This document shows, in pieces, positions 151 through 24,317 of a DNA stretch of 64,000 nucleotides. Made by a program: the position numbers and the translations under genes. Under the pieces are notes generated by a model. That model had not been told where the DNA came from. It was given only the letters and a program-made list of their open reading frames with translations, and did not search any database. The DNA is from Mariniflexile sp. TRM1-10 (lineage in GTDB: Bacteria > Bacteroidota > Bacteroidia > Flavobacteriales > Flavobacteriaceae), in contig NZ_CP022985.1 of NCBI RefSeq assembly GCF_003425985.1, forward strand, positions 3,828,001 through 3,892,000. Reading direction: 5' to 3'. The first letter of the stretch is position 1. Every line of letters begins with the position of its first letter.

Positions 151-194
151 CTGATATATATCAGTTTCAAATTCATTTTCGTATAGTAAATTAG
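151..194 (+). promoter_or_regulatory. FNR-like box with spaced -7 element
   Basis: CTGATATATATCAG at 151-164 sits inside a perfect 20-bp palindrome (148-167). A -7-like element TAAATTAG lies at 187-194, its centre exactly 33 bp from the palindrome centre, the same spacing as at the nrdJ, usp, hsp20 and BON promoters. There is no convincing protein-coding gene downstream before the terminator at 377-406, so the promoter may drive a small RNA. Confidence 0.65.
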
Positions 195-199
195 CATCA

Positions 200-406
200 T
201 AAATAAAAACGTTCTTTCTCATTTGAAAATATATGAAGTCTATAAATCGTATGATTTTTTAGCCTTCAAGAAGAATTTGGAGATATTACTTGACATAACA
301 TTATCAGTTGCCCTTTAGGAATAAAGTTATATTACTGTTTGTTTTTAATGTTAATTGATAAACTTAAATTCTTCGGAAAACAGGAAGTTTCGACTTCCTG
401 TTTTTT
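200..406 (+). ncRNA. Candidate FNR-box-driven small RNA
   Basis: The roughly 200-nt interval begins just after an FNR-like box with a correctly spaced -7 element and ends in a strong hairpin followed by a T-run. The longest reading frames inside are only about ten codons. Promoter and terminator without an ORF suggest a non-coding transcript of the stress island. I recognise no RNA family, and a very short peptide cannot be excluded. The start is estimated from the -7 position. Confidence 0.3.
377..406 (+). terminator. Intrinsic terminator
   Basis: A 12-bp stem (77-88 of this line against 393-404) with a TTTCG-type loop is followed by six T. Almost the same hairpin recurs at 555-584, so the two may be copies of one another. 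Confidence 0.7.
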
Positions 407-554
407 AAAAAGCATAGACCTTGCCATTGTAAGATATCAAGGTCGAAACAAGGCGTTCGAAGCTGTTATACAACAGGAAAACCTCCATTTGGTCATTTGA
501 TAATGGTCAATTGCAGAAAACCGCATGTTAGATAGCATCATTGAATGTTTTGGG

Positions 555-584
555 AAAACAGGAAGTTTCGGCTTCCTGTTTTTT
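555..584 (+). terminator. Intrinsic terminator, second copy
   Basis: AAAACAGGAAG pairs with CTTCCTGTTTT around a TTTCGG-type loop and is followed by T residues. It is nearly identical to the hairpin at 377-406. The 407-554 interval between them has no ORF and no clear promoter and could hold a second small transcript. From 585 to 716 I see nothing recognisable. Confidence 0.6.
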
Positions 585-727
585 ACTGTTAAATTTTATA
601 ATGAGTATTAAGATATTTACAAAAAGACATTCAAAGTTGTTTTTAACTGAAAAGCTAAATTCTCTTTAGCAATGAAGGAATATTAGCGGTTAGAAAAGGT
701 TACAAGATAAAATTGAATGTCCAAGAA

Positions 728-757
728 AACGGAGAAGCTAGACACTTCTCCGTTTTT
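728..757. terminator. Bidirectional terminator after upp
   Basis: AACGGAGAAG pairs with CTTCTCCGTT across a 7-nt loop, with an A-run on one side and a T-run on the other, so it can act on both strands. It lies 25 bp beyond the minus-strand uracil phosphoribosyltransferase stop codon. Confidence 0.7.
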
Positions 758-781
758 GATTCAACAACCCTTAAATAATCC

Positions 782-1435
782 TTATAATTTTATTCCAAAG
801 GATAGATCACCAGCATCACCAAGACCGGGAATAATATACCCTCTATTGCTTAAGTTGTCATCTATGGTGGCAATCCATAAATGGGTGTTTTTAGGAAACA
901 TACTATTAATATATTCTACCCCAGTTTTTGAGCCTATAACAGCGACTATATGTATTTGTTTTGGTATCCCATGTCGTTTAAAAGCTTTCAGCACATTAAC
1001 CAAGGTTTTTCCAGAAGCCACCATCGGGTCGCATAAAATCAAGGTTTTGTTATTAAGTGATGGTGATGCAAGATATTCAACAACAATCTCGAAAGAATCA
1101 CTGTTATTGCTGTGGTGCCTGTAGGCCGATATAAATGCATTCTCAGCTTTGTTATAGTAATTTAATAATCCTTGATGTAAAGTTAGGCCAGCTCTTAGCA
1201 CTGAACATAAAACAAGTTGATCCTCATATACGGCCATCGTCTTGCTCCCAAAAGGTGTTTTAACATCTCTAATTTTATAATGTAATGTTTTGCTTAGTTC
1301 ATATCCTAATACTTCACCAATGTGCTCAATATTCTTTCTGAAACGCATAGCATCTTTTTGTATATCAACATCCCTTAATTCAGATATGAATTGATTTAAA
1401 ATAGAATTGTTGGTAGAAAAATCATGCACAATCAT
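782..1435 (-). CDS. upp: Uracil phosphoribosyltransferase
   Basis: This cytosolic salvage enzyme converts uracil and PRPP to UMP and pyrophosphate. The 217-residue protein has full family length. The PRPP-binding loop is at residues 131-144 (LILCDPMVASGKT) and the uracil-binding C-terminal loop at about 200-214 (PGLGDAGDLSFG). It is transcribed divergently from the class II ribonucleotide reductase, and the FNR-like box at 1496-1507 lies between them. On the minus strand a weak -7 (CAATTTTA, 1465-1472) has the 33-bp spacing, so both genes may share one operator. Pyrimidine salvage fits the nucleotide supply theme of the neighbour. Confidence 0.93.
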   Translation of the reverse strand: MIVHDFSTNNSILNQFISELRDVDIQKDAMRFRKNIEHIGEVLGYELSKTLHYKIRDVKTPFGSKTMAVYEDQLVLCSVLRAGLTLHQGLLNYYNKAENAFISAYRHHSNNSDSFEIVVEYLASPSLNNKTLILCDPMVASGKTLVNVLKAFKRHGIPKQIHIVAVIGSKTGVEYINSMFPKNTHLWIATIDDNLSNRGYIIPGLGDAGDLSFGIKL

Positions 1436-1464: not shown

Positions 1465-1538
1465 TAAAATTGATGAATAAAATTCAATTTTTAAATGACA
1501 TATATCATTGATGTTATTGATTCATCTGGATATATTTA
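1465..1538. promoter_or_regulatory. Divergent FNR-like promoter, upp / nrdJ
   Basis: The box TGACATATATCA at 1496-1507 differs from the consensus by one base. On the plus strand a -7 element TATATTTA lies at 1531-1538, and on the minus strand CAATTTTA at 1465-1472. Both element centres are 33 bp from the box centre. A single dimer site could therefore activate both directions. Confidence 0.65.
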
Positions 1539-1674: not shown

Positions 1675-3393
1675 ATGGAAATATTGACTAAAAATGCCAT
1701 ACAAATTCTTGAAGACCGCTATTTACTAAAAGATAGTAAAGGCGCACTTATTGAAAATCCCGAACAGCTTTTTCGTAGGGTAGCCAAATTTGTTGCAAGT
1801 TGTGAAAAGGCGCATGTTGCAGATTGGGAGAATACGTTTTATAATCTTATGAGTCTGCTGAAATTCTTGCCAAATTCACCAACATTAATGAATGCAGGTT
1901 GTAAAAATGGTCAATTAAGTGCGTGTTTTGTTTTGCCAATAGAGGATAGCCTTGAAAGTATTTTTACGACTTTGAAGCATGCTGCTTTGATACACCAAAG
2001 TGGAGGTGGTACTGGATTTAATTTTTCGAAGTTACGACCTAAAAATGATTTGGTGAGTTCCACAAACGGGACATTATCTGGTCCAGTTGCTTTTATGAAA
2101 ATTTATGATGCTGCTACGGAATACGTGAAACAAGGAGGCAAAAGGCGAGGAGCCAATATGGGGATCTTAAATGTCAATCATCCTGACATTCTTGAGTTTA
2201 TTCAATCAAAATCCAGTAAAAAAGCCATTGAAAATTTTAATATTTCCGTTGGTATCACAAACGATTTTATGCGAGCTGTTGAAAATGATTCTACTTGGAA
2301 ACTTATAAACCCTCGTACGCTTCATATAGAGAAAACGCTCAAAGCAAAAAAAATATGGCAACTGATTGTCGAAGAAGCTTGGAAAACCGGAGATCCCGGA
2401 TTGGTATTTTTGGATACTATAAACGCAGCAAATCCTACACCAAAACAAGGAAATATAAATTGTACAAATCCCTGTGGTGAAGTGCCTTTGTTGAATTATG
2501 AAAGTTGCAATTTGGGATCTATCAATCTTTCAAAAATGACACGTATGGTCAATAATAAATATGAGGTTGATTGGGAGGAATTAGCATCTACTATCCAAAT
2601 TGCCATTCGATTTTTAGATAATATTATCATAGTAAATCATTATTTAATGCCGGAGGTGGAGGCGATAACAACATCCAATAGGAAAATTGGGTTGGGAGTC
2701 ATGGGATGGGCAGAACTTCTCATTTTATTGGAAATGCCTTATGAATCCGAGAAGGCACTCACTTTAGGTGAAAAACTCATGAAATTTATTAAGCAAGAAA
2801 GCTATAAGGCTTCAGCAGCTATAGCCATGGAAAAAGGTGTGTTTCCAGAATGGGAAAGAAGCGTTTTTTTTCCAATTTACAAAATGAGAAATGCTACTTG
2901 TAATAGTATGGCACCTACAGGGACCATTTCGGTTATTGCAAACACATCGTATTCTATTGAGCCCTTGTTTGCCTTGGCTTATATAAGAGTTGGCATCTTA
3001 GGTGGAAAAAAACAAACAGCCCTAAATGGTGTTTTTCTACAAAAAATGAAGGAACTGAATTTATGGACCGATGCCTTGAAAAAGCAAATTTACCAGTCTG
3101 GTAGCATTCAGGAAATAGAAAGCATACCTTCACAAATAAAATTGTTATTTAAAACAAGTTTGGAAATATCTTGGCAGTACCATTTATTGCATCAAAAGAT
3201 TTTTCAGAAATTCACTGATAATGCCGTTTCAAAAACTATAAATCTATCTCAAGATGCTAGTGTTAAAGATGTTTCGGACATCTATATGACAGCATGGAAA
3301 TATAAACTAAAAGGTATTACAATTTATCGCTATGGCAGTAAAGACCATCAGATACTTCAAAAGTGCAGTCTTAACAATAGTACAAATTGCTAA
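1675..3393 (+). CDS. nrdJ: Class II ribonucleotide reductase, adenosylcobalamin-dependent
   Basis: This enzyme reduces ribonucleotides to deoxyribonucleotides using a thiyl radical made from adenosylcobalamin, without needing oxygen. The 572-residue protein shows the first redox cysteine in LSACFVLP (C84), the NPCGE signature with the thiyl cysteine (N265, C267, E269), the partner cysteine in SCNLGS (C278) and the phosphate-binding APTGT loop (413-417). The C-terminus ends in a Cys pair (C564, C572) that could pass electrons. There is no N-terminal ATP-cone, which suggests loss of overall activity control. It is preceded by an FNR-like box and a perfectly spaced -7 element. It resembles NrdZ-type enzymes of hypoxia regulons more than the long housekeeping NrdJ. 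Confidence 0.88.
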   Translation: MEILTKNAIQILEDRYLLKDSKGALIENPEQLFRRVAKFVASCEKAHVADWENTFYNLMSLLKFLPNSPTLMNAGCKNGQLSACFVLPIEDSLESIFTTLKHAALIHQSGGGTGFNFSKLRPKNDLVSSTNGTLSGPVAFMKIYDAATEYVKQGGKRRGANMGILNVNHPDILEFIQSKSSKKAIENFNISVGITNDFMRAVENDSTWKLINPRTLHIEKTLKAKKIWQLIVEEAWKTGDPGLVFLDTINAANPTPKQGNINCTNPCGEVPLLNYESCNLGSINLSKMTRMVNNKYEVDWEELASTIQIAIRFLDNIIIVNHYLMPEVEAITTSNRKIGLGVMGWAELLILLEMPYESEKALTLGEKLMKFIKQESYKASAAIAMEKGVFPEWERSVFFPIYKMRNATCNSMAPTGTISVIANTSYSIEPLFALAYIRVGILGGKKQTALNGVFLQKMKELNLWTDALKKQIYQSGSIQEIESIPSQIKLLFKTSLEISWQYHLLHQKIFQKFTDNAVSKTINLSQDASVKDVSDIYMTAWKYKLKGITIYRYGSKDHQILQKCSLNNSTNC

Positions 3394-3404: not shown

Positions 3405-3447
3405 TGATATATATCATATTTTCTATTTATAAAAAAGTTTAAATTTA
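3405..3447 (+). promoter_or_regulatory. FNR-like box and -7 element, usp operon
   Basis: The perfect palindrome TGATATATATCA lies at 3405-3416 and TAAATTTA at 3440-3447, with centres 33 bp apart. The first universal stress protein starts at 3473, giving a leader of roughly 20 nt. Confidence 0.7.
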
Positions 3448-4324: not shown

Positions 4325-4346
4325 ATACATTAAAAAATTATTGGTT

Positions 4347-7413: not shown

Positions 7414-7529
7414 AATATAGGAAAATGAAGCCATGATTTGGAAACATAAAGACCAATGAAAATAAAGCGATTGCTTCGCCAGTTCGCTATAGCTCGTGTC
7501 CATATGACTGGAAGAATTATGAATTCAGA

Positions 7530-7666: not shown

Positions 7667-8065
7667 ATGAAAAGCACAGGTATTTGGTTAGATAAAAGCA
7701 GGGCACTCATTGTTAATATAGAAAACAATGAGGAAACCATGAAAATAATCCATTCTGATATAGATAATTATAATGTTACGGCAAATAGACATATTGGAGG
7801 CGCAAAAGAAATCGTTAAGGATGTTAAATATTTAGAACGCGAAAAGCAACAGTTTAAATCCTATTTTAAGGATATAGTGCAAGAGATAAACAATACGGAT
7901 GCTTTGGTCATTTTTGGTCCTGCGGAAACCTATAAAAAATTCGCAAAAGAGTTGGAAGAGAACCATAAAAATATAAGTGTAAAAATCAAAGGCAAAAGAA
8001 AGACCGATAGCATGACCGATAATCAGGTTATAGCTTGGGTAAGGGATTTCTTTGAATCTAAATAA
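7667..8065 (+). CDS. Small protein, possible eRF1/Pelota-like (baeRF) domain
   Basis: A 132-residue soluble protein. The opening GIWLDKSRALIV resembles the start of bacterial eRF1-like (baeRF or translational machinery) proteins, which read WIDHREA near the N-terminus. The middle reads DALVIFGPAETYKKFAKEL, the strand-turn-helix seen in that fold, and the end is helical and basic. I make the assignment on pattern only. It stands 41 bp before the ATP-cone/nuclease gene and probably shares its transcript with the two following genes. Function is unknown; a role at stalled ribosomes would be inference. Confidence 0.5.
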   Translation: MKSTGIWLDKSRALIVNIENNEETMKIIHSDIDNYNVTANRHIGGAKEIVKDVKYLEREKQQFKSYFKDIVQEINNTDALVIFGPAETYKKFAKELEENHKNISVKIKGKRKTDSMTDNQVIAWVRDFFESK

Positions 8066-8106
8066 TAGATAGAGTTGTTGTTATTATAATATTTTTTTAA
8101 GGATCT

Positions 8107-8943
8107 ATGGAAACTGATTTTGAAGTCATTAAATCTTCGGGTGAAAAAGTAAAGTTTTCACTGGGTAAGCTGCATGCATCATTAAGCAAATCTGGTGCAA
8201 ACAATGAAACAGTAAGCCAAATTATAGATAAAGTACAGGAAGAATTATATGACGGTATCTCTACAAAAGAAATTTATAACCGAGCGTTTGCATTACTCAA
8301 AAAAAAGGGTAGTTATCTGGCATCAAAGTACAAACTTAAAAAAGCAATTTATGAATTGGGACCCACAGGCTATCCTTTTGAACGCTTTATAGGAGCCATT
8401 TTAAAATATTCAGGGTATCAAACCCATGTTGGTGAAATATTACGAGGTGAGTGCGTGACGCATGAAATCGATGTGTTAGCTAGTAAGAACGGTACCACTA
8501 CGGTAATTGAATGTAAATTTCATAGTGAAGAAGGAAGAAACTGCAATGTTAAAGTGCCTTTATACATCGCTTCTCGTTATAAAGATGTCAAGTCGCATTG
8601 GGATTCAAAACCACGTGATACCGTGCTTAATGAAGGCTGGCTGGTCACAAATACACGGTTTACTGAAGATGCGTTACAATATGGTAAATGCATTGGGTTG
8701 TATTTGTTGAGTTGGGATTATCCAAAAAATGACGGTTTAAGAGATCGTATAGACCGATTGGGATTATATCCAATAACTGTTTCCACCTTACTGAGTGGCC
8801 GCGAAAAGCAGTTTTTATTAAGCAGGGATGTTGTACTCTGCAGGGATTTAATAGATGATGTGTTTTTTCTGGATCACTTAGGTATTTCCGATATCCGTAA
8901 AGCAAAAATCCTAAATGAGATAAACATGCTATGTAAACACTGA
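8107..8943 (+). CDS. ATP-cone domain fused to PD-(D/E)XK nuclease-like domain
   Basis: A 278-residue cytosolic protein. Residues 1-88 match an ATP-cone: FEVIKSSGEKVKFSLGKL, then a helical region with GSYLASKYKLKKAI. ATP-cones sense dATP/ATP in ribonucleotide reductases and NrdR. Residues 90-200 look like a restriction-endonuclease (Mrr-like) core with E92, D122 in HEIDVLA and E135-C-K137 in VIECKFH, a complete PD-(D/E)XK catalytic set. It ends four bases before the beta-CASP RNase gene and lies near the B12 ribonucleotide reductase. A nucleotide-gated nuclease is the simplest reading; the substrate is unknown. Confidence 0.75.
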   Translation: METDFEVIKSSGEKVKFSLGKLHASLSKSGANNETVSQIIDKVQEELYDGISTKEIYNRAFALLKKKGSYLASKYKLKKAIYELGPTGYPFERFIGAILKYSGYQTHVGEILRGECVTHEIDVLASKNGTTTVIECKFHSEEGRNCNVKVPLYIASRYKDVKSHWDSKPRDTVLNEGWLVTNTRFTEDALQYGKCIGLYLLSWDYPKNDGLRDRIDRLGLYPITVSTLLSGREKQFLLSRDVVLCRDLIDDVFFLDHLGISDIRKAKILNEINMLCKH

Positions 8944-8947
8944 TGCC

Positions 8948-10321
8948 ATGGATAATTATGTGAAGGTAAATTTTTTGGGAGCTACAGGCGTGGTTACTGG
9001 CTCAAAATTTCTAATTGAAACCTCTGAAAAAAATATTTTAATTGATTGCGGGATGTTTCAAGGACTCAAAGAGCTTCGAGAACTCAACTGGTGTGACCTT
9101 CCTGTTGATGTTGGCTCTATTGATCTGGTTTTGCTCACACATGGGCATTTAGATCATGTGGGGTATTTACCGCGCTTGGTAAAAGAGGGCTTTAAGGGAA
9201 AAATAATAGGAACAGCACCTACCTTGGGCATTGCAGAAATCATTTTAAGGGACAGTGCAAAAATACATGAGGAAGAGGCAGAAAATGCCAATAAAGAAAA
9301 CTATACCAAACACAACCCTGCATTGCCATTTTACACCGTAAAGGAGGCCGAAAAAACAACCCACATGTTTCAAGTTGAAATGGAAGATAAATGGATTAAT
9401 CTATCGGAACACATAGCGTATCGTTTTCAATATAATGGTCATATTCTTGGGGCAACATTTATAGAAATAGACATCAATGGAAAACGTTTTGTGTTTTCTG
9501 GTGATATTGGAAGGACCAATGATTATTTGTTAGATGATCCTAAACGCCCTGAATGGGCAGACTTCCTTTTTCTGGAGAGTACCTATGGTAATAAGCTTCA
9601 TCCGTCTGAAGATGTGGAGACCATACTTTCGGAAATAATTGTGGATACTGTTCACAAAAAGGGTAATTTAATCATTCCAAGTTTTGCAGTTGAGCGTCTT
9701 CAGACTCTTATGTATATCCTTTGGAAGCTATATCAAAAAAACAAAATACCAAACATTCCCATTTTCATGGATAGCCCTATGGGAAGTAACGTTTTGGAGC
9801 TTTTTAATCGCTTCCCAAAATGGCACAAACTTTCAAGTTCCGATATAAGTGCCATGAGCCGTCATGTAAACATTGTGCAATCCTATAAAGAAACTTGGGA
9901 AACCATAGATGATAAACGCTCTAAAGTCATTATCGCAGGAAGTGGCATGGTTACAGGTGGGCGTGTATTGACCTATTTACAACAGTTGATTGACGAACCA
10001 TCTACAACCGTTTTAATGGTCGGATATCAAGCAGAAGGTACTCGTGGAAGGCAATTATTGGATGGTGTTCACGAAATCAAATTATTTGGCAAATACTATC
10101 CCGTTAAAGCTACTATAAAACATCTGGAAAGTCTGTCTGCACATGCCGACCAGGAAGAATTGATTCATTGGATGAGCAATATTATTAACATTCCTGAAAA
10201 AGTATATCTCATTCATGGAGAGCCAACAGCTTTGGATGTTTTAAGGGTGAAAATTAAAGATGTGTATCATTGGGATGTTACCATACCCAAATTATCTGAT
10301 GTGGAAAAAATAATCATTTAA
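8948..10321 (+). CDS. Metallo-beta-lactamase/beta-CASP family ribonuclease
   Basis: A 457-residue protein of the CPSF-73/Ysh1-like group, which cleaves RNA endonucleolytically or as a 5' exonuclease. Metal-binding motifs are present: THGHLDH (64-70), SGDIGR near 180, the beta-CASP Asp/Glu motif region with ESTYGN, SGMVTGGR near 335 and SAHADQEEL near 395. The length matches the family. It starts four bases after the ATP-cone/nuclease gene, so the two are co-translated. In several phyla such RNases accompany usp and hsp20 genes in stress islands. Confidence 0.88.
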   Translation: MDNYVKVNFLGATGVVTGSKFLIETSEKNILIDCGMFQGLKELRELNWCDLPVDVGSIDLVLLTHGHLDHVGYLPRLVKEGFKGKIIGTAPTLGIAEIILRDSAKIHEEEAENANKENYTKHNPALPFYTVKEAEKTTHMFQVEMEDKWINLSEHIAYRFQYNGHILGATFIEIDINGKRFVFSGDIGRTNDYLLDDPKRPEWADFLFLESTYGNKLHPSEDVETILSEIIVDTVHKKGNLIIPSFAVERLQTLMYILWKLYQKNKIPNIPIFMDSPMGSNVLELFNRFPKWHKLSSSDISAMSRHVNIVQSYKETWETIDDKRSKVIIAGSGMVTGGRVLTYLQQLIDEPSTTVLMVGYQAEGTRGRQLLDGVHEIKLFGKYYPVKATIKHLESLSAHADQEELIHWMSNIINIPEKVYLIHGEPTALDVLRVKIKDVYHWDVTIPKLSDVEKIII

Positions 10322-10370: not shown

Positions 10371-10413
10371 TGATATTTATCATTTCCCCTCGTGTTTTAG
10401 TATTGTAAATTTA
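10371..10413 (+). promoter_or_regulatory. FNR-like box and -7 element, hsp20
   Basis: TGATATTTATCA at 10371-10382 and TAAATTTA at 10406-10413 have centres 33 bp apart. The inferred transcript would start near 10420, exactly where a P-family palindromic element begins, placing that element in the hsp20 leader. Confidence 0.65.
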
Positions 10414-10591: not shown

Positions 10592-11041
10592 ATGACACTA
10601 GTAAAATTTAACAACAGAAACAGATTATTCCCATGGAATAATGGCGGATTGAGAAATCTCTTAAATTATGACCCTTTTATTAACGACGATTTATTGGAAG
10701 ATGACAGTTTCATGCCAGCAATGAACGTTAAGGAACACGATAACGAGTTTGAAATTGAATTTGCAGCCCCAGGATTTTCAAAAAAAGATTTTGATGTAAG
10801 CATTGATGGTGACATGCTTCATGTTAGTGGTGAAAAAAAGATGGAAAAAGAGGAAAAAGATGATGGCTACACTCGCAAAGAGTTTAGTTATAACTCTTTT
10901 AATAGATCCTTAAAATTACCTGCAAACGTTAATGCCGATAAAAAAGTGAAAGCTAGTTACAACGATGGTATCTTAAAATTAAATCTTCTTAAAAAAGAAG
11001 AATCCAAAACCACAGCTAAAAAGAAAATTGAAATTCTTTAA
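10592..11041 (+). CDS. Hsp20/alpha-crystallin small heat shock protein
   Basis: A 149-residue ATP-independent chaperone that holds unfolding proteins in the cytosol. The alpha-crystallin domain spans about residues 40-140, opening with PAMNVKEHDNEFEIEFAAPG and including the typical DGDMLHVSGEKK and the A-x-x-x-n-G-I-L motif (ASYNDGILKLNL). The C-terminal tail is lysine-rich and ends KIEIL, so the I-x-I/V anchor used for oligomer assembly is present. It has an FNR-like promoter with a palindromic element in the leader. It is the counterpart of HspX in the DosR regulon. Confidence 0.93.
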   Translation: MTLVKFNNRNRLFPWNNGGLRNLLNYDPFINDDLLEDDSFMPAMNVKEHDNEFEIEFAAPGFSKKDFDVSIDGDMLHVSGEKKMEKEEKDDGYTRKEFSYNSFNRSLKLPANVNADKKVKASYNDGILKLNLLKKEESKTTAKKKIEIL

Positions 11042-14198: not shown

Positions 14199-14212
14199 TT
14201 AAACCACTTTTT

Positions 14213-14466: not shown

Positions 14467-14509
14467 TGATATTTATCATTTTAATCAAGAGGAATTCATT
14501 TTATATTTA
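14467..14509 (+). promoter_or_regulatory. FNR-like box and -7 element
   Basis: TGATATTTATCA at 14467-14478, within the 18-bp palindrome 14464-14481, and TATATTTA at 14502-14509, centres 33 bp apart. It precedes the small ORF at 14532 and then the SHOCT gene at 14726. Confidence 0.65.
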
Positions 14510-14725: not shown

Positions 14726-14944
14726 ATGGATCATTATTACGGACATTTCTTTGGAATGCATTTTATATGGTGGATTATATGGATCATTCTAGTAATCTGG
14801 ATTTTTGCAACACCATACGACATTCCATACCAAAAAACAAAAAGGGAGAGCCCATTGGATATTTTAAAAAAGCGTTTTGCGAAAGGAGAAATCACTAAAG
14901 AGGATTATGAAGACGCCAAGAAAACCTTAAAATCTGAAGATTAA
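14726..14944 (+). CDS. Small membrane protein with SHOCT domain
   Basis: A 72-residue protein with one hydrophobic Trp-rich segment (about residues 10-29, IWWIIWIILVIWIF) followed by a C-terminal SHOCT motif (LDILKKRFAKGEITKEDYED). SHOCT is a short oligomerisation module found at the end of many small membrane proteins. It is likely co-transcribed with the small ORF upstream from the FNR-like promoter at 14467. The 14945-15204 gap after it shows no gene and no clear box. Confidence 0.85.
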   Translation: MDHYYGHFFGMHFIWWIIWIILVIWIFATPYDIPYQKTKRESPLDILKKRFAKGEITKEDYEDAKKTLKSED

Positions 14945-16637: not shown

Positions 16638-17291
16638 CTAATAAGTAACTTCAAGTTCATTGTCTACTTCGTAAACACCCGGTGCTAGATATGCAGCTCT
16701 ACGGACTTCTTCTTTTTCTGTCCATGAATGCACTTTTCCACGTAATTTCACCTTATGACCATCCACAATAACATTAATGTTTTGTGCTTCAATTTCGGCA
16801 GAACGCTCCAATGCTTTTTTGATTTTCTCTTTAACTTGGTAAGGTTCAATACTTTGTTTTAAGGTAATGGAATTACTAACCCCCCTGACGCCAAGAAGAT
16901 TCTCAACGGCGCTTTTAGCAGCATCTTTTTGGTACTCCCATTTTACTTCTCCAGATAAATAAATCCACCCATTGTCTACTTTAATCTGGACTTTATCATC
17001 TGGCACAGAATAATTCCATTTTAAGGCATCAGCAGCAGCTTTTGCGATTTCCTTATCCGATTTTTTGTACTCAGTACCGTATTTTACTTCAATATCTTCT
17101 GCAACGGCTCGGACTCCTTTTACAGATTTAGCGGCTTTTTCCGCTGCTATTTTTTTTGCATAACTGTCTACCGTACCAGTTAGGGTAACAACACCTTTTT
17201 CTACGGTTACACCAATTTCAGTTTCATCAATAGCTGGCTGCCATGCCAATTCATCGAGTACATCATTTCTAATTTCTACATCTGTTTTCAT
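16638..17291 (-). CDS. Triple BON-domain protein
   Basis: A 217-residue protein made of three BON domains (about 3-70, 77-143, 148-217), each with the pattern of strand, GVVTLTGTV-like turn and KGV-like strand. There is no signal peptide or lipobox, so unlike OsmY or the lipoprotein forms this one should be cytosolic. BON domains are thought to bind membranes or surfaces. Similar multi-BON proteins accompany Hsp20 and usp genes in stress islands. An FNR-like box with a perfectly spaced -7 element drives it. Confidence 0.88.
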   Translation of the reverse strand: MKTDVEIRNDVLDELAWQPAIDETEIGVTVEKGVVTLTGTVDSYAKKIAAEKAAKSVKGVRAVAEDIEVKYGTEYKKSDKEIAKAAADALKWNYSVPDDKVQIKVDNGWIYLSGEVKWEYQKDAAKSAVENLLGVRGVSNSITLKQSIEPYQVKEKIKKALERSAEIEAQNINVIVDGHKVKLRGKVHSWTEKEEVRRAAYLAPGVYEVDNELEVTY

Positions 17292-17326: not shown

Positions 17327-17369
17327 TAAATATACAATTGAAGCAATTATTTGAGAATGATATATATCA
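17327..17369 (-). promoter_or_regulatory. FNR-like box and -7 element, BON gene
   Basis: TGATATATATCA at 17358-17369 and, on the minus strand, TATATTTA at 17327-17334, centres 33 bp apart. The inferred leader to the BON start codon is about 30 nt. Confidence 0.7.
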
Positions 17370-17441
17370 GTTTCGTAAAGTAAATTATCGCTTTTATTTT
17401 GTTTAAAATACTGATTTTTAGGCAGCCATGTTTAAAGCAAC

Positions 17442-17484
17442 TGATAAATATCATTTTGTTTTCCTGAATTTTTGTGGAATTTTA
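17442..17484 (+). promoter_or_regulatory. FNR-like box, weak -7, helical paralogue 2
   Basis: TGATAAATATCA at 17442-17453, with GAATTTTA at 17477-17484 at the same 33-bp spacing but a poorer -7 match. The leader to the gene at 17764 is about 270 nt and contains three AAGGAGG tracts and an R-type repeat. Confidence 0.5.
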
Positions 17485-17672
17485 TTATGTGGCTGCAATC
17501 ATGGAATTTACCTCAGTTTAAAGGAGGATGTACTATCTCTAGCCATAAGTTTAATATTGATGGATTGCAATAATCAGGTGTAACAAAAAAGGAGGTAAAA
17601 TCAATTAATTTTAGGTATAAAAACTAGTTTTAAGGAGGTGTTTAACAAGAAGTAAATGAGCCAAGTAAAACA

Positions 17673-17745
17673 TTATGAAACGCCCATGAGAAGCATTTAC
17701 ACATACGAGGATGATTATTAAGGGTGTTCCATCTAACGAAGTTAA
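17673..17745. repeat. R-type inverted repeat, copy 3
   Basis: TGAAACGCCCATGAGAAGC ... AAGGGTGTTCCATCTAAC closely matches 11763-11832. It ends about 20 nt before the start codon of helical paralogue 2, again followed by an A-rich run and CAGATGA. Confidence 0.5.
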
Positions 17746-17763
17746 AATAATAAATATAAACAG

Positions 17764-18171
17764 ATGAAAACTAAAAAATCAAATCCAAAGATCAAGTTAT
17801 TATTAGGAACAGGATTAGATACTTTACATTTTGAAAGTCAAGAATGGCTTGAAACCATTGCCTTTTGGAAAGATGAAGCACGTTTTTTTGAGGATCTTTT
17901 AAAAAAGAAAGAATTAAAAGAGAAAAGTCAAAATGAGTACACTAAATTGTTACAGGAATTGGATAAAATACATGCCGATCTCTTTAGTGATATAGAGGAT
18001 TCAATCATGAAACACGAGCGTTTACTTTCTAGAATAGAAAAAGGTGAAAAAGGCCTGTCGGATGGAAACTATAGAGAAGAACACGGTGCTTTAAAGGAAA
18101 GAATGTATAGATTTGATAAGGATTTTCGTATGTTTAAAAAGATTGTCTTTGATTATGTGAAAAAATCTTGA
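17764..18171 (+). CDS. Uncharacterised helical protein, paralogue 2 of 3
   Basis: A 135-residue soluble helical protein. Its N-terminal block WLETIAFWKDEARFFEDLL aligns with the 11305 protein, and its C-terminal block REEHGALKERMYRFDKDF aligns with both paralogues. It stands between an FNR-like box with a long leader and the P-type ATPase gene 126 bp downstream. I do not recognise the family. Conserved acidic residues and one His per protein would fit a ferritin- or hemerythrin-like bundle, but the usual spacing of those families is not evident. Confidence 0.7.
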   Translation: MKTKKSNPKIKLLLGTGLDTLHFESQEWLETIAFWKDEARFFEDLLKKKELKEKSQNEYTKLLQELDKIHADLFSDIEDSIMKHERLLSRIEKGEKGLSDGNYREEHGALKERMYRFDKDFRMFKKIVFDYVKKS

Positions 18172-18297
18172 TACAAAAAACTACAATTTTGATAGCTATA
18201 TAATATAGCAAACGCTATTCATAATTTCCGAAACAAATTACGGACATTATCTAAGGCCTTTATTCTTTAAATTAGTTACATACTCAACCAAAAGCCA

Positions 18298-20838
18298 ATG
18301 ATTTCAGTAGAAAATTTCAATATCAAAGGGCTTTCAGATAGTCAAGTACTTCAATCAAGGATAAAATTTGGCATTAACCGCACAAATTTCAAGAAGGAAA
18401 ATGAGTTTATAAAGGCTTTAAAAAGTTTATTGAAAGAACCCATGGTGATTTTGCTGTTGGTTACGGCCACTATCTATTTTATCACTGGCAATATAGGTGA
18501 TGGCATTTTTCTATCGGTTGCCATTGTTTTAGTGTCCACAATCTCCTTGTATCAGGATTCCAAAAGTCGTATCGCATTAGAGAAATTAAAAGATCTTACC
18601 AAACCACATAGTAAAGTCATTAGGAATGGTGAAGTTATCGATATCAAAAGTGAAGATATTGTTATTGGAGATGCTTTGATTGTGGAAGAAGGCCATTCCA
18701 TATCGGCAGATGGTGCCATCATCCATTCCAATGACTTTTCGGTCAACGAATCGCTTCTAACAGGTGAATCATTAGCAGTTTATAAGGATAAAGACAAAGC
18801 AGACCATTTTGTGTATCAAGGCACCTCTGTGGCTAGTGGATTGGGTATAGTCACTGTTACCGCAATAGGTGAAAAGACCCAATTAGGTAAAATAGGAAAG
18901 AGTATTGAAAGTATAGAAGAAGAAAAAACACCCATCGAAATTCAAATCCAGAATTTTGTTAAAAAGATGGTTATTGCTGGTGTGGTCGTTTTTATTGGAG
19001 TATGGCTTCTCAATTATTTTCGGACTTATGATTTTTTGGACAGTTTATTGAAATCCTTGACGTTGGCAATGAGCATTTTGCCGGAAGAAATTCCCATTGC
19101 TTTTACCACATTCATGGCTTTAGGCACTTGGAGATTATTAAAAATGGGCATCATTGTCAAACAGATGAAAACCGTTGAAACTCTCGGAAGTGCCACCACA
19201 ATTTGCGTTGATAAAACAGGGACCATTACCAAAAATGAAATGAGTCTTGTTAAAATCTATTCCTTAAAATCGAACACAGTTTCCGATGCTGATTCGTCAG
19301 CATTTAAAGCGGATGAAAAAGAACTTATAGCACTCGCCATGTGGGCAAGTGAGCCTATACCATTTGATGCCATGGAAATTTCCTTGCACAAGGCCTATTC
19401 CAAAATAGTTCATGAAGATGAACGTCCAAGATATAAAATGGTTCATGAATACCCTTTGGGGGGAACGCCTCCCATGATGACCCATATTTTTGAGAACGAA
19501 AGCGGTAAGCGTATCATTGCGGCAAAAGGCGCCCCCGAAGCCATCATGAAAGTATCCAATCTTTCAGAAAATGAAAAGAAACAAATCAACCAAACCATTG
19601 GTAATTTAGCGTCCCATGGTTATCGTTTACTGGCAGTAGGGGCCTCTGATTTTTCCGGAAATGATTTCCCACGGAATCAACAAGATTTCAAATTTAACTT
19701 CAAAGGAATTGTTGCCTTCTATGATCCGCCCAAACCCAATATCCAATCAGTTTTTGAAGCTTTTGATAACGCTGGAATTAAAGTAAAAATAATCACTGGT
19801 GATAATGAGGATACTGCGCTTGCCATAGCAAAACAAATACATTTTAAAAATGATGACAAACGGATTTCAGGAAGAGAATTAATTAACTTGTCAGACATTG
19901 AATTGCAATCCGCATCCACAGATAATTTTTTGTTTACCAGAATGTTTCCAGACGCAAAATTAAAAATCATCAATGCTTTAAAAGCCCAAAAAGAAATTAT
20001 AGCTATGACTGGTGATGGTATTAATGATGCCCCTGCTTTAAAATCAGCTCATATTGGTATTGCCATGGGTAATAGAGGCACGGAGATTGCAAAACAGGCA
20101 GCTTCCATTATTTTATTGGAAGATGATTTATCAAAAATGCTTGATGCCGTTGCTATGGGGCGCAAAATTTATGCAAATCTCAAAAAAGCGATTCAATACA
20201 TTATCTCCATTCACATCCCCATTATCCTAACTGTTTTCATTCCTTTAGCATTAGGATGGGTGTATCCCAATATTTTTTCACCAGTACATGTTATTTTGTT
20301 GGAATTGATAATGGGACCCACATGTTCCATCATTTATGAAAATGAACCCATGGAACAGAACATAATGGTACAAAAACCACGTCCTTTTACACGTACTTTT
20401 TTCAATTTCAGGGAACTCACAACAAGTATTTTTCAAGGATTGATGATTACGGTCGGTATTTTACTTATATATCAATATGCAGTTCATAGCCACTACGGAG
20501 AATCATTGACCAGAACCATGGTTTTTTTAACACTTATTGTCTCAAATATCACACTCACATTGGTCAATCGTTCCTTCTATTATTCCGTTATTACCACGTT
20601 GGGTTATAAAAACAAATTAGTACCACTTATAATAAGCATCACAATTGTAATAACGGCATTATTTATTTTTGTTGAACCTTTTATTGGATTTTTAAAATTT
20701 GAAAGACTCTCCTTGACCCAAACGTTTTTGAGCATTTTTACAGGGTTTTTGTTCGTTATTTGGTATGAAATCCTAAAATGGAATGAAAGAAGGCAACATA
20801 TATTTGAAGAGAAGTCTATCATTAAAATTTTGAATTAA
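18298..20838 (+). CDS. Cation-transporting P-type ATPase (P2, calcium-type)
   Basis: An 846-residue inner-membrane pump. Seen in order: N-terminal cation-ATPase domain, two membrane segments near 45-85, actuator domain with LTGES (about 156), the PEEIPIAF ion-site helix (about 262-269), phosphorylation site DKTGT (D305), nucleotide domain with KGAPE, hinge TGDGINDAPALK (about 571-582), and a C-terminal membrane domain. The PEE-P pattern and length match SERCA/PMCA-like P2 pumps such as mycobacterial CtpF, which is also a DosR-regulon member. No heavy-metal domain is present. The ion is likely calcium, though a proton or another cation remains possible. Confidence 0.88.
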   Translation: MISVENFNIKGLSDSQVLQSRIKFGINRTNFKKENEFIKALKSLLKEPMVILLLVTATIYFITGNIGDGIFLSVAIVLVSTISLYQDSKSRIALEKLKDLTKPHSKVIRNGEVIDIKSEDIVIGDALIVEEGHSISADGAIIHSNDFSVNESLLTGESLAVYKDKDKADHFVYQGTSVASGLGIVTVTAIGEKTQLGKIGKSIESIEEEKTPIEIQIQNFVKKMVIAGVVVFIGVWLLNYFRTYDFLDSLLKSLTLAMSILPEEIPIAFTTFMALGTWRLLKMGIIVKQMKTVETLGSATTICVDKTGTITKNEMSLVKIYSLKSNTVSDADSSAFKADEKELIALAMWASEPIPFDAMEISLHKAYSKIVHEDERPRYKMVHEYPLGGTPPMMTHIFENESGKRIIAAKGAPEAIMKVSNLSENEKKQINQTIGNLASHGYRLLAVGASDFSGNDFPRNQQDFKFNFKGIVAFYDPPKPNIQSVFEAFDNAGIKVKIITGDNEDTALAIAKQIHFKNDDKRISGRELINLSDIELQSASTDNFLFTRMFPDAKLKIINALKAQKEIIAMTGDGINDAPALKSAHIGIAMGNRGTEIAKQAASIILLEDDLSKMLDAVAMGRKIYANLKKAIQYIISIHIPIILTVFIPLALGWVYPNIFSPVHVILLELIMGPTCSIIYENEPMEQNIMVQKPRPFTRTFFNFRELTTSIFQGLMITVGILLIYQYAVHSHYGESLTRTMVFLTLIVSNITLTLVNRSFYYSVITTLGYKNKLVPLIISITIVITALFIFVEPFIGFLKFERLSLTQTFLSIFTGFLFVIWYEILKWNERRQHIFEEKSIIKILN

Positions 20839-20870: not shown

Positions 20871-21794
20871 CTACTTCATCATTTTCAAAACATCGTCGAT
20901 ATGTGATTTACTGGCAAGATTGGTGCCTTCATTCATGGTTGTGGCGACTCCACATGCAACGCCCCATTTTAAAATGTCCTGTACCGAAAAAACATTTTTA
21001 ATCCCATAGATCAATCCTGCTACCATACTATCACCTGCGCCGATAGTACTTTTTACTGATACGGAAGGTGTGGACTGGTAAACAACACCCTCTTTGGATG
21101 CCATAAAGGCGCCTCTTGCACCTAAAGAAACGGCGACATATTGAGCTTTACCGGATTTTACCACATCTAAAGCAAAGGCCTCTTGTTCGGTGCTTGATAA
21201 AAATTCCTTGTCTGCCAATTGTGCCAATTCTCTTTGATTTGGTTTTACTAAAAATATCGGCTCTTTAAGAGCCTCTGTGAGTGCTGGTCCAGAAGTGTCA
21301 ATAACAATTTTTATGTTTTTCGGAGACACTTGTTTAATTAATGTCGCATAAAAATCTGTTGCTACGTTTTCAGGTAGGCTTCCACTTAATACAAGGATGT
21401 CATTATTTTTAAGGCATTTATCCAGTGTCGATTTTATTTCAGTGAGTTCCACATCTTGCAATCCGTTACTCGGCATCCCAAAACGATATTGTAAATTACT
21501 CTTTGTATCCACTATGGATAGGTTTTCCCTCGTCCATGATTTTATCGCAATACTTTCTGGCGTAATGCCTTCTTTTAAAAGTAATTCGTGAAGATATTTA
21601 CCTGTATCGCCGCCAGAAGTAAATATACAATGTACTTTTTCATCAAGCCTATTGAGCATTCTAGAGACGTTAATGCCACCACCCCCAGGTTGATATACTA
21701 TGGAGTGGCATTTGAGTTTCTGGGTAGGTACAAGACTATCTACTTTGGCACTTTTATCCAAAGCGGGATGTATGGTAAGGGTTATAATATTCAT
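20871..21794 (-). CDS. pfkB: 6-phosphofructokinase, PfkB type
   Basis: A cytosolic ribokinase-fold kinase, likely phosphorylating fructose 6-phosphate. The start ITLTIHPALDKSAK and the PGGGGINVSRML signature match E. coli Pfk-2 closely, and the C-terminal anion hole and base are in STIGAGDSMVAGL. The frame could begin at a GTG at 21803, but I prefer the ATG at 21794, which gives the usual MNIITLT opening. It is convergent with the ATPase and follows helical paralogue 3 by about 17 bp, so the two form an operon. PfkB is also a member of the mycobacterial dormancy regulon. Tagatose-6-phosphate kinase activity is an alternative. Confidence 0.85.
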   Translation of the reverse strand: MNIITLTIHPALDKSAKVDSLVPTQKLKCHSIVYQPGGGGINVSRMLNRLDEKVHCIFTSGGDTGKYLHELLLKEGITPESIAIKSWTRENLSIVDTKSNLQYRFGMPSNGLQDVELTEIKSTLDKCLKNNDILVLSGSLPENVATDFYATLIKQVSPKNIKIVIDTSGPALTEALKEPIFLVKPNQRELAQLADKEFLSSTEQEAFALDVVKSGKAQYVAVSLGARGAFMASKEGVVYQSTPSVSVKSTIGAGDSMVAGLIYGIKNVFSVQDILKWGVACGVATTMNEGTNLASKSHIDDVLKMMK

Positions 21795-21811
21795 AAGTAT
21801 CACTTTCAGGA

Positions 21812-22219
21812 TTAAGATTGTTTTAAAATACTTCCAATATAGTTGTAAATTTTTAATTTGTATTCGAAAAAATCCTTAAGGAATTTCTCAAAATGAACTT
21901 TTAATGACTCATGATTGCTTAAATATACCGCATCACAGGACAAGTCATCACACTCCATCATACCACGCATTTTAATGTCGTGACCATCAATGATTTCCTT
22001 GAGGTTTTTCAATGCCTTTGTTTCAGTTTTGATCTGGTTTTTGAAAGTATTTAAGATTTCAAAAACAGTGTCGTGGGTTGTTTCAAATGCATTGGAATTA
22101 AGTAATTTGTTGATGAAAATGATTTCTGTTTCAGTATATTCAACCATTGATTTCCACCACAATACGTCGCGATGGCATTTTAGTAAAGTGTCTTCCGGTG
22201 TGTTGTCTGAATTATTCAT
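21812..22219 (-). CDS. Uncharacterised helical protein, paralogue 3 of 3
   Basis: A 135-residue helical protein, the most diverged of the three. The N-terminal block reads WWKSMVEYTETEIIFINKLL, and the C-terminal block SNHESLKVHFEKFLKDFFEY keeps the H-E-x-L and F-L-K-D-F core. A central DGHDIKMRGMM matches the position of the HGNALKIM stretch in paralogue 1. It sits between a saccharopine-dehydrogenase-like gene and pfkB on the same strand with short gaps, consistent with one operon. Confidence 0.65.
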   Translation of the reverse strand: MNNSDNTPEDTLLKCHRDVLWWKSMVEYTETEIIFINKLLNSNAFETTHDTVFEILNTFKNQIKTETKALKNLKEIIDGHDIKMRGMMECDDLSCDAVYLSNHESLKVHFEKFLKDFFEYKLKIYNYIGSILKQS

Positions 22220-22241
22220 ATCATATTAATTTTGAGCATAG

Positions 22242-23384
22242 TTATACATTTCCATAAATGGGAACGATAAAGTTTCCATTTAAAAAAGATTGTGGATCTA
22301 TATTACTTTGCAATAAGACGCCTTTTAATGTCGATTCCAGTAATAATTGAGCTGATTGAATTAAAGGAACCGCCGTTGTTGTTTGAATGGCCCGTAATTG
22401 ATACTTGCCTATTTTTTGAGGGAGAATTTGCTTTGCTACTTCTCGTCTCCGCAAAGTACCCTTAGCGTCTTTACCCTGCACTGCTGCATATATGATGATT
22501 TGGTCCTCCTCAATATGTGGAATCTGCTTTTCCATAATGAGTTGTAAAGCTTCAATAGGTTGATCTGAATCGGATACATTCTTAATTTGTTCTTCTACCC
22601 ACGCATAATGACCAGGAAATCGTATGGTTTTATAGTCCATGGCATCCACCTGTCCGGCTAAAGCATCGGGTAAATCGGCAGCGCCTCCCGAAGTCAGGTC
22701 TACTTCATAAGTTATTCCGTTGATAATTATAGAGGTTCGTTCTGATAGGGAAGGGCGTTTTGTTTTTTTGTAATTACGAATCACTTCAGTTTCTTTAATA
22801 TATTCTGTAGCAACCCCTATGGGACTCCATGTGAATCCGTAGTAGTGGGGTGCAACGGCATTCTTTGAAAGTGCACCTACTTTAAACTCTAAAGTATCTA
22901 CTTTGCTTACTTGAAAATCATTGCAAAATGCTTTAAATAGATGATTAGCCAATACATCTATATAGCCTGGAGCGAGACCAGTCTGTAAAATAAAGCCTGT
23001 TGATGCATCTTTTGCCAATGCTTTTATTTTATCGGTCTCTGCCACATATTCGGTTAGGTTGGCGTAATGCAACTTATAATCTTTGGCAAAGCCTGCCATC
23101 TTTGGTGCTTGGGTTCCGGGCAAGCAATCGAGAAGAATATCTCCTTGATTAAAAACAATTTTCATTTCTTTGGAAAGACCTGTTTCTGAAAGATGAAAAG
23201 GTTTTAAAATACAGGGTCGGGTTGTGCCAGCTTCAATCCATTTCACAAGATTTTGTGCTTTGGAAAGTGTTCTGTTGCCAATAAAAATAGTAGGAGTGAC
23301 TGTACTCCATTCGACGAGTATAAGCGCAACTGCTTGAGCGATGCCGCCTGCACCTGCAATAATAATCGTATGGTGTTTGTTCAT
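22242..23384 (-). CDS. Saccharopine dehydrogenase-like oxidoreductase
   Basis: A 380-residue protein with an N-terminal Rossmann fold (IIIAGAGGIAQAVALIL, residues 7-23) and a catalytic-like segment ILQTGLAPGYIDVLANHLF near 150, followed by the C-terminal domain of the saccharopine dehydrogenase/homospermidine synthase superfamily. Which amino acid or polyamine it handles is not clear. It is the first gene of a probable operon with helical paralogue 3 and pfkB. No FNR-like box was seen in front of it; a Q repeat lies there instead. Confidence 0.75.
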   Translation of the reverse strand: MNKHHTIIIAGAGGIAQAVALILVEWSTVTPTIFIGNRTLSKAQNLVKWIEAGTTRPCILKPFHLSETGLSKEMKIVFNQGDILLDCLPGTQAPKMAGFAKDYKLHYANLTEYVAETDKIKALAKDASTGFILQTGLAPGYIDVLANHLFKAFCNDFQVSKVDTLEFKVGALSKNAVAPHYYGFTWSPIGVATEYIKETEVIRNYKKTKRPSLSERTSIIINGITYEVDLTSGGAADLPDALAGQVDAMDYKTIRFPGHYAWVEEQIKNVSDSDQPIEALQLIMEKQIPHIEEDQIIIYAAVQGKDAKGTLRRREVAKQILPQKIGKYQLRAIQTTTAVPLIQSAQLLLESTLKGVLLQSNIDPQSFLNGNFIVPIYGNV

Positions 23385-23423
23385 AATTTAAACTTTATTT
23401 ATTGAACTCATCTTAAATAATCA

Positions 23424-23577
23424 TTATTGTCCAATAAAACTTTTACAATTCACTGCAAACACAGTGCTAATGGCTTTTTAAGGAGTTTACCGATTTGTGG
23501 TCTAGCTTTTTGTAATAATTAATCTAAATAATCCCGATGGTTTTGCTATCGTCTATTTTCTATTATTCTATTATCTA
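23424..23577 (+). repeat. Q-family dispersed repeat, copy 2
   Basis: It begins ATTATTGTCCAATAAAACTT, holds CACTGCAAACACAGTG and GGCTTTTTAAGG, and ends in a run of TCTATTTTCTATTATTC-like pyrimidines that reaches the stop codon of the FMN-binding gene. It is very similar to copies 4 and 5. Confidence 0.7.
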
Positions 23578-24027
23578 TTATCTCTTCTCATACCTCCCAG
23601 TTTTTTCCGTAAGCCTAATTCTATATACAATACCTTGCATCGCCTCAGCATATTCTCCATGGGAATCGGTCATGGCATGATGTATTGTTGTTTCGCTTGT
23701 CATTATGGGTAGTACACGATCCATTAGTTTTTGCATGCCCATTTCTCTTTCTTCAGAAGTTTTTAATTCTTCAAATTTGCCCAAAGCGATGACACTTCTC
23801 CAATTGCTTATATTATCTATAACATCTACCTCTAAACACACGTTTGGATTTTTTCGCATCATGTCTACTTTCATACCCTCTTTTGTATGTCCATAAATAT
23901 AGGTGCCATCATAAGCGTAAGTTATAGGTACAATGTAAGTCATATCATCTGCATGACAACCAATCCGTCCAATAACTTGGCTATATAATAAATGCTCTAT
24001 CTGACTGTTTTTTAAATCTCCTAACAT
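23578..24027 (-). CDS. FMN-binding split-barrel (PNPOx-like) protein
   Basis: A 149-residue protein of the pyridoxamine-phosphate-oxidase-like split-barrel group. Seen: IGRIGCHADDMTYIVPITYAYDG at the start, YIYGHTKEGMKVDMMRKNP and VCLEVD, the usual FMN-binding pattern. Relatives bind flavin or F420 or confer nitroimidazole resistance. The frame extends to a GTG at 24030, but ATG at 24027 is the likely start. It has an FNR-like box about 280 bp upstream with a complete P-family element in the leader. The DosR regulon also includes a PNPOx-like protein. Confidence 0.8.
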   Translation of the reverse strand: MLGDLKNSQIEHLLYSQVIGRIGCHADDMTYIVPITYAYDGTYIYGHTKEGMKVDMMRKNPNVCLEVDVIDNISNWRSVIALGKFEELKTSEEREMGMQKLMDRVLPIMTSETTIHHAMTDSHGEYAEAMQGIVYRIRLTEKTGRYEKR

Positions 24028-24050
24028 CACATTTAATTTTGAATTACATT

Positions 24051-24270
24051 GAAGTGGTTTAAACTTTTTCTAATTGGCTAAAAAACCGCCCTTTTTTGCC
24101 CACTCTACGTCTTTTTTTCTTTCCGTAGCTTTTCCAATGCGACAAGCTGGCTCCTTCTCTAAAAAGGTTTACTAAACCTTTTCTTTACGCTCGGCCCTAA
24201 CTCGAAAAAGGCTTCGATTGGACAAAAAATGACTAATTTTCGCTTCAATCGAAAAAGGTTAAACCTCTTC
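24051..24270 (+). repeat. P-family palindromic element, copy 4 (core B)
   Basis: 220 bp, beginning GAAGTGGTTTAAACTTTTTC and ending GGTTAAACCTCTTC. The centre is core B with hairpin AAAGGTTTACTAAACCTTT. It is almost the reverse complement of copy 1. It would lie in the leader of the minus-strand FMN-binding gene. Confidence 0.75.
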
Positions 24271-24274
24271 ATTG

Positions 24275-24317
24275 ACAAAATACATGAATCATACGAAAAT
24301 CAAAATGATATATATCA
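24275..24317 (-). promoter_or_regulatory. FNR-like box, FMN-binding gene
   Basis: TGATATATATCA at 24306-24317 is a perfect palindrome. On the minus strand TATTTTG occurs near the expected -7 place but is one base short of TAnnTTTG. On the plus strand TACAATTG at 24341-24348 has the 33-bp spacing, but no gene follows it. Confidence 0.5.

Follow-up and report, generated by a model that had tools for sequence, protein, structure and literature searches.

Which protein reads the short palindromes that stand at a fixed distance from promoter elements in a flavobacterial genome, and which genes do they serve? The question is raised by a 64,000-nucleotide stretch of Mariniflexile sp. TRM1-10 DNA (hereafter the window; positions 3828001-3892000 of a genome that consists of one contig, NZ_CP022985.1, of 4,858,325 bases), which carries repeated copies of the box TGATAWWTATCA. 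These boxes are probably class II activator sites, centred at -41.5, of a low-oxygen survival regulon of the Flavobacteriaceae, operated through a histidine kinase together with a response regulator whose C-terminal half is a Crp/Fnr protein.

Exact copies of TGATAWWTATCA occur seven times in the window (152, 3405, 10371, 14467, 17358, 17442, and 24306), and the TGAC variant TGACATATATCA occurs once, at 1496. The first-pass annotation of this DNA had listed these eight sites, of which seven stand as given and the first starts at 152, not 151. Its remark that no box follows later in the window also holds: there is no exact or TGAC copy after 24317, and the only one-mismatch copies there are TAATAATTATCA at 28255 and TAATATTTATCA at 57881. 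For every box in the window, an element lies 24 bases past the box end on at least one strand, which corresponds to 33 bp between the centres, so that a correctly spaced -7-like element is present at all eight when one weak and one TAnnTTGY-type element are counted. The 33-bp spacing claimed earlier for six sites was found at all six, the one at 17358 proving to lie on the minus strand; the site at 24306 had been left out of that list, yet it is exactly spaced on the minus strand, and the weak element suspected at 17442 is indeed at the right distance. At 1496 and 14467, such an element is present on both strands, the minus-strand one at 1496 being weak. The sites are as follows:

152..163, plus strand: box 1, TGATATATATCA, with the -7 element TAAATTAG at 187-194
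1496..1507, no strand assigned: box 2, TGACATATATCA, with the -7 element TATATTTA at 1531-1538 (plus)
3405..3416, plus strand: box 3, TGATATATATCA, with the -7 element TAAATTTA at 3440-3447
10371..10382, plus strand: box 4, TGATATTTATCA, with the -7 element TAAATTTA at 10406-10413
14467..14478, no strand assigned: box 5, TGATATTTATCA, with the -7 element TATATTTA at 14502-14509 (plus)
17358..17369, minus strand: box 6, TGATATATATCA, with the -7 element TATATTTA at 17334-17327 (minus), facing a BON-domain gene
17442..17453, plus strand: box 7, TGATAAATATCA, with the weak element GAATTTTA at 17477-17484
24306..24317, minus strand: box 8, TGATATATATCA, with the TAnnTTGY-type element TATTTTGT at 24282-24275 (minus), facing a Pyridox_ox_2 gene

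In the whole genome (4.86 Mb), 20 exact boxes were counted, compared with 2 for the pattern read backwards. Thirteen of them cluster in 54.7 kb (3797578-3852317), an island that begins 30 kb ahead of the window and holds 15 boxes once TGAY/RTCA variants are counted. Among the seven exact boxes outside the island, five lie inside long open reading frames (ORFs) and look like chance occurrences; the other two are intergenic with a -7 element in place, the first being 39 nt ahead of a gene that by eye is hemN-like and the second 51 nt ahead of an ORF of 246 amino acids (aa).

The same arrangement recurs in the neighbourhoods of the fused regulator in 60 relatives (1.18 Mb; 58 loci of 20 kb and two of 12.3 and 11.8 kb). 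These loci contain 77 exact boxes and a single backwards copy, and 29 other orderings of the half-site letters average 1.2. Of the 154 box strands, 48 have TAnnTTT at offset 24, and the next-best offsets account for 7 and 6 strands; the eight sites of the window are few by themselves, but the same offset stands out in the relatives. Boxes are by no means equally frequent in coding DNA: ORFs of at least 100 aa hold 5 of the 77 boxes while covering 85% of these loci, and the intergenic density around the regulators is 84 times that in ORFs. In the window, matches with two mismatches number 38 against a shuffle mean of 31, and 13 of 100 shuffles reach 38; this count is not above chance, and the signal of the window is therefore confined to the strict box. 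The chance-level count would suit the view that the boxes arise as by-products of AT-rich palindromes and have no regulatory role. Chance palindromes are ruled out by the clustering in the genome, the permuted half-sites, the single offset, and the intergenic placement, and with the dependence on regulators described below, the by-product view retains a negligible probability.

In Flavobacterium psychrophilum, the -7 box has been mapped to -12 to -5 (PMC9723704); with TAnnTTT at offset 24, the palindrome would then span -47 to -36 and be centred at -41.5. A TGAN-N4-NTCA palindrome with its centre near -41.5, as computed from this offset and the published -7 position, supports the earlier suggestion that a Crp/Fnr dimer would bind at about -41.5 on a Bacteroidota promoter. 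The promoters carry the Bacteroidota sigma-A features, TAnnTTTG at -7 with a gene soon after: the start codon lies 12-40 nt past the -7 element in 85 of 95 promoters (own promoters included), and among 86 promoters of relatives, selected for TAnnTTT, the eighth base is A in 56% and G in 41%. The SM1-3 promoters of F. psychrophilum are described with the same TAnnTTTG, and SM5 with TAnnTTGY at the same place, which is matched by TATTTTGT at box 24306 (PMC9723704); the terms 'Crp', 'fnr', and 'palindrom' are absent from the main text of that paper. The base following the box is T in 99% of the 86 promoters and the mirror base preceding it is C in 63%, an asymmetry that breaks the palindrome and thus marks the promoter side. 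The spacer is always A/T, as had been remarked, but this is no peculiarity of the strain, since an A/T spacer dominates the regulator loci of the family. Ten loci of more distant homologues (167 kb, one from Flavobacterium; a small sample) gave 1 exact box versus 46 copies of TGAY-N4-RTCA, and the AWWT box was rejected as the form used there.

The candidate readers of the box and the associated kinases are encoded at these positions:

genome 3823822-3825324, 2.7 kb before the window: histidine kinase of 500 aa with two PAS domains, HisKA, and HATPase_c
genome 3825321-3826370, overlapping the kinase gene by 4 nt: fused response regulator-Crp/Fnr protein of 349 aa with receiver, cNMP_binding, and HTH_Crp_2 domains
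genome 431661-433957: second kinase-regulator pair (414 and 351 aa), adjoining a Usp-like gene and the canonical 225-aa Fnr-like protein
genome 429974-430645: canonical Fnr-like protein of 225 aa with a CxxC N-terminus
window 36968-37726, minus strand: another Crp/Fnr protein, an alternative reader, away from the boxes

The first PAS domain of both kinases has its best PDB match in FixL (1d06; 6.7e-13 and 8.2e-16), followed by DosP. The kinase adjoins the fused regulator in 73 of 74 loci; a His aligned with the FixL heme ligand is present in 73 of 75 kinases, an Arg aligned with the distal Arg of FixL in 54, and the HisKA His in all 75. In FixL, this His binds the heme, and the Arg stands on its distal side. 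The kinases show the features of a FixL-like heme-PAS kinase, namely a PAS domain with the proximal His and a kinase core, and heme binding and inhibition of the kinase by oxygen are predicted; with 106 bits against a cut-off of 850 for the FixL equivalog NF041777, the protein is FixL-like rather than FixL. In the fused regulators, the receiver residues E9, D10, D11, D53, and K105 are invariant in 14 of 14 sequences, as are E315, I318, and R319 of the recognition helix. FixJ consists of a REC plus a LuxR-type output domain, whereas the output here is cNMP_binding plus HTH_Crp_2. The fused regulator is no Fe-S FNR either: its N-terminal half is the receiver, it lacks the N-terminal cysteine cluster of FNR, and no CxxC occurs in the 14-sequence consensus. 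The TGAT half-site, the 4-base spacer, the -41.5 centre, and the E and R of the recognition helix are nevertheless shared with FNR of the E. coli type at class II promoters. Unlike the TTGAT read by E. coli FNR, the boxes lack the leading T and are mostly preceded by C or A, and the fused regulator has Ile where FNR has Ser. Such regulators are common, 7791 of the 7999 candidates that were scored reaching E <= 1e-60. Names given to proteins among the best 120 listed are generic (response regulator, OmpR-family, PhoB, CheY-like, CRP-like/FixJ family), and the closest named protein among the matches listed, from Mariniflexile sp. HMF6888, shares 95% identity.

These features suggest a pathway in which the kinase, on losing oxygen from its FixL-like heme-type PAS domain, would phosphorylate the overlapping response regulator. 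The phosphorylated dimer would bind TGATAWWTATCA and activate RNA polymerase at the TAnnTTTG promoter, the -33 region of which abuts the box. The fused regulator would combine in a single protein the tasks that FixJ and FixK share between them, and the canonical Fnr-like protein, encoded elsewhere, would read the same promoter class. In the FixL-FixJ-FixK cascade of Alphaproteobacteria, a FixL-type kinase and two-component signalling likewise end in a Crp/Fnr protein that reads a TGA-type palindrome, with cco and hemN likewise among the targets and TTGANCNNGATCAANG in place of the present TGATAWWTATCA, as reported in PMC4999443. The difference is that the receiver and Crp/Fnr halves are fused here and that the promoter is of the Bacteroidota kind.

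The dependence on regulators was assessed in 149 genomes of the same family (own genome included), 66 of which encode the fused regulator. A strict promoter, defined as the box, 23 bases, and TAnnTTT, occurs 273 times in 98 of the 149 genomes and 3 times backwards. The mean number per genome is 3.58 with both regulators (n = 36), 2.13 with the fused regulator only (30), 1.40 with the canonical protein only (52), and 0.23 with neither (31), so that genomes without either candidate do not hold the promoters equally often. At least one promoter is found in 24 of the 30 fused-only genomes versus 5 of the 31 with neither (Fisher 5.8e-7, kinship ignored). The order is kept in genomes of at least 3 Mb and at least 90% completeness (both, 3.79, n = 33; fused only, 2.42, 24; canonical only, 1.24, 37; neither, 0.25, 8), and a Poisson fit with genome size to these 102 genomes gave z values of 6.3 for the fused regulator and 2.5 for the canonical protein, kinship again ignored. 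Promoter numbers rise separately with each regulator, which is most simply explained by one promoter class that serves both proteins. The boxes had first been taken to define one regulon; the shared promoter class is borne out, and it is probably read by at least two regulators rather than forming a single regulon. In a phylum sample of 247 genomes, the fused regulator occurs in 38 (16 of the same family, 1 of the same order, and 21 of the same class) and the strict promoter in 39, of which 24 are among the 27 family genomes and 15 among the 220 remaining ones.

The presence of the promoter in 35 of the 52 genomes that have only the canonical Fnr-like protein raises the question of whether this protein alone reads the boxes while the fused REC-Crp protein controls something else. 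Sixteen promoter loci in genomes without the fused regulator point in the same direction, 11 of them with a close ORF behind the promoter (by eye, two hemN, one deoC, two Usp, one NrfH-like cytochrome, and five mixed), and in the relative L160 the gene of the Fnr-like protein itself stands behind such a promoter. Six Cys residues are kept in 10 of 10 close orthologues; they include a CxxC and a residue close to where FNR has its fourth cysteine, and could allow the protein to sense oxygen directly. Their spacing, however, is unlike that of FNR, two of the six are missing from the L160 orthologue, and the protein scores 94 bits against a cut-off of 228 in the Fnr model. Moreover, the promoters are retained in 24 of the 30 fused-regulator genomes without the canonical protein (E <= 1e-60), and the boxes crowd around the locus of the fused regulator. 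Exclusive reading by the Fnr-like protein is thus rather unlikely.

Several observations weigh against the proposed scheme. The island boxes at 3813834, 3820219, and 3827419, outside the window, have no good -7 element, and the base after box 1 is G instead of T. In nine of the 60 regulator loci, boxes are missing even when the TGAY form is allowed. A strict promoter is absent from 6 of the 30 fused-only genomes and, beyond the family, from 19 of the 22 genomes that encode the fused regulator. The genomes share ancestry, and the promoter counts are uncorrected for phylogeny. Two of the 75 kinases lack the PAS His, which may be general to this PAS subtype. Further possible readers exist: the genome has six HTH_Crp_2 matches, of which five score above the cut-off (both fused regulators, the Fnr-like protein, the protein at window 36968-37726, and a stop-containing frame at 4444531), and the last two of these as well as the sub-threshold match at 4142295 come into consideration. 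In the 60 loci, no promoter faces the kinase-regulator operon: a box lies within 300 bp upstream of the kinase (taken from the first start codon of the frame) in 14, none with a -7 element facing the kinase, and autoactivation of the operon is for this reason not claimed.

The island genes in the window are arranged as follows:

782..1435, minus strand: uracil phosphoribosyltransferase, divergent from box 2, with the weak element CAATTTTA at the right distance
1675..3393, plus strand: adenosylcobalamin-dependent ribonucleotide reductase (NrdJ/NrdZ type)
3473-4324, 4341-5204, 5201-6040, and 6335-7189, plus strand: four universal stress protein genes (Pfam Usp)
7667..10321, plus strand: 132-aa protein without Pfam match, ATP-cone/Mrr_cat protein, and beta-CASP metallo-hydrolase, following the Usp genes in the same direction
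10592..11041, plus strand: Hsp20 small heat-shock protein
12759..14198, minus strand: PAS-domain protein, divergent from box 5, with TACATTAG at the right distance on the minus strand
14726..14944, 15205-15852, and 15857-16495, plus strand: SHOCT-domain protein, hydrolase-like protein, and phosphoribosyltransferase
16638..17291, minus strand: three-BON-domain protein, putative target of box 6
17764..20838, plus strand: 135-aa protein without Pfam match and P-type cation ATPase (18298-20838)
20871..23384, minus strand: PfkB-type kinase, 135-aa protein without Pfam match, and saccharopine dehydrogenase-like protein, with no box of their own
23578..24030, minus strand: Pyridox_ox_2 protein, putative target of box 8, with a weak NimABCDEF match below the cut-off

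Behind the 86 promoters of the relatives, the first gene is Usp in 45 cases, FixS/CcoS in 5, S30AE (ribosome-hibernation type) in 5, and Hsp20 in 3, with single cases of uracil phosphoribosyltransferase, thioredoxin, DnaJ, DeoC, Radical_SAM, Pyridox_ox_2, and a Crp/Fnr protein. Downstream in the window, genes for an NMT1-type ABC transporter, a multihaem cytochrome, and an oxidoreductase occupy 28215-37726 together with a Crp/Fnr protein of their own and no exact box. Heme PAS and Crp/Fnr proteins can also sense nitric oxide. The signal might accordingly be nitric oxide, nitrite, or the redox state instead of oxygen, in a Dnr- or HcpR-like role in which the protein at 36968-37726 could participate; the position of this transporter and cytochrome (nitrate type by eye) next after the island would fit, as would the promoter that precedes an NrfH-like cytochrome (by eye) in one relative. 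Such a signal has only a slim chance of being the right one, considering that the only box-like sequence of the transporter-cytochrome cluster is the one-mismatch copy at 28255, inside an ORF, and that Usp, FixS/CcoS, S30AE, and Hsp20 prevail among the first genes that follow the promoter.

The gene content of the island resembles that of known systems. The DosR regulon of Mycobacterium has Usp, Hsp20/alpha-crystallin, and phosphofructokinase in common with the island, and the lxa locus of Burkholderia cenocepacia, a large low-oxygen locus to which the island is likened by gene content alone, is described with six Usp, alpha-crystallin, and phosphofructokinase (PMC6127331 for both, PMC9104464 for lxa). 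A Crp-type regulator and FixLJ are discussed as controls of lxa (PMC6127331, PMC9104464), which differs from the present case in its separate regulators, phylum, and promoter class. Flavobacteriales homologues of Crp/Fnr, for their part, have been assigned to a carbon-sensing MalR-like group, according to PMC8510549. As regards regulation, the island-side protein has the REC-cNMP-HTH_Crp architecture. DosR is of the LuxR type and has a different box, and its regulon also resembles the island in a B12-type ribonucleotide reductase, a P-type ATPase, a Pyridox_ox-like protein, and a phosphoribosyltransferase. By analogy, the flavobacterial set may work like DosR and lxa through regulators of another kind. 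A search of the open-licence PMC literature gave, among the titles and abstracts listed, no description of the box, of the fused regulator, or of a Bacteroidota counterpart of lxa or DosR, and none of Crp/Fnr control of flavobacterial low-oxygen genes with a defined box. If the proposal is true, a similar stress-protein set has been coupled to low oxygen on separate occasions, in mycobacteria, in Burkholderia, and in flavobacteria, by another regulator each time. The box, the promoter geometry, the two candidate regulators, and the target list are now defined well enough for direct tests. The chances are evenly balanced for a broader proposal, namely a dormancy-like low-oxygen programme of flavobacteria that is a single-protein short cut of FixLJ-FixK, in which the response regulator phosphorylated by the heme-PAS kinase is at once the Crp/Fnr activator. 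This programme would have its box and promoter geometry in common with an Fnr-like protein that senses the signal directly, would control a dedicated small RNA as well, and would be an independent counterpart of DosR and lxa.

The small RNA in question would be transcribed from box 1, behind which the first ORF of at least 60 aa starts at 717 and a 50-aa frame starts at 348:

199..405 (ends inferred), plus strand: candidate small RNA of about 207 nt with the 5' motif ACGTTCTTT
382-399, plus strand: terminator hairpin AGGAAGTTTCGACTTCCT, followed by a T run, at the end of the candidate

In relatives, the order is the box, TAWWTTAG or a close form, AMGTTCYTT (with GTTC 13-18 nt after the -7 element), and a hairpin 212-221 nt after the box. 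This order is found near the regulator in G110, G028, G049, G124, and G132, the boxes of G049 and G132 having one mismatch, and in a sixth relative, G034, with a changed first hairpin. The combined pattern of 5' motif and hairpin occurs once each in 7 of the 149 genomes (G110, G028, G049, G124, G132, the own genome, and G133) and never backwards. No Rfam match was obtained for the 199-405 RNA at E <= 0.1 (window 1-30000), nor at gathering in the loci of the six relatives. A conserved fold beyond the terminator was rejected, only 5 of 36 consensus pairs having double changes, two of which are in the terminator hairpin. A second, similar hairpin lies at about 550-585, and such a hairpin follows in several genomes.

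Other elements were noticed in presumed leaders. The leader of 17440-17763, before the gene at 17764, contains three GGAGG runs between 17440 and 17660 (by eye), which are odd in a family described as having no Shine-Dalgarno sequences (PMC9723704). A small peptide in this leader was dismissed as a gene, the frame being open in two copies and absent from others, and what the copies share is more plausibly an RNA hairpin, ACACCCATGAGAA...AAGGGTGTTC. This hairpin-like element is present at about 17680-17730 and at 11768-11820 of the window, at genome positions 3814590 and 3826488, and at 3574 (minus) in L025; two of the five own copies precede Usp-like genes and three precede other ORFs. In the loci of the 60 relatives, the pattern was not found, and L137 has a diverged copy. 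Another repeated element, GAAGTGGTTTAAA, occurs in the window at 7337-7415, 10419-10509, 14212-14425, 24049-24270, and 54659-54871, and also in L020, L022, and L023; it stands just downstream of three of the eight box promoters (10371, and 14467 and 24306 on the minus strand).

Among the island proteins, the match of the B12-type ribonucleotide reductase (1675-3393) is limited to model positions 12-578 of 759, and an ATP-cone is carried by another protein (8107-8943), which also has an Mrr-type nuclease domain. The beta-CASP protein that follows (8948-10321) has its best NCBIfam match in the type VII CRISPR Cas14 model, with 386 bits compared with a cut-off of 800.

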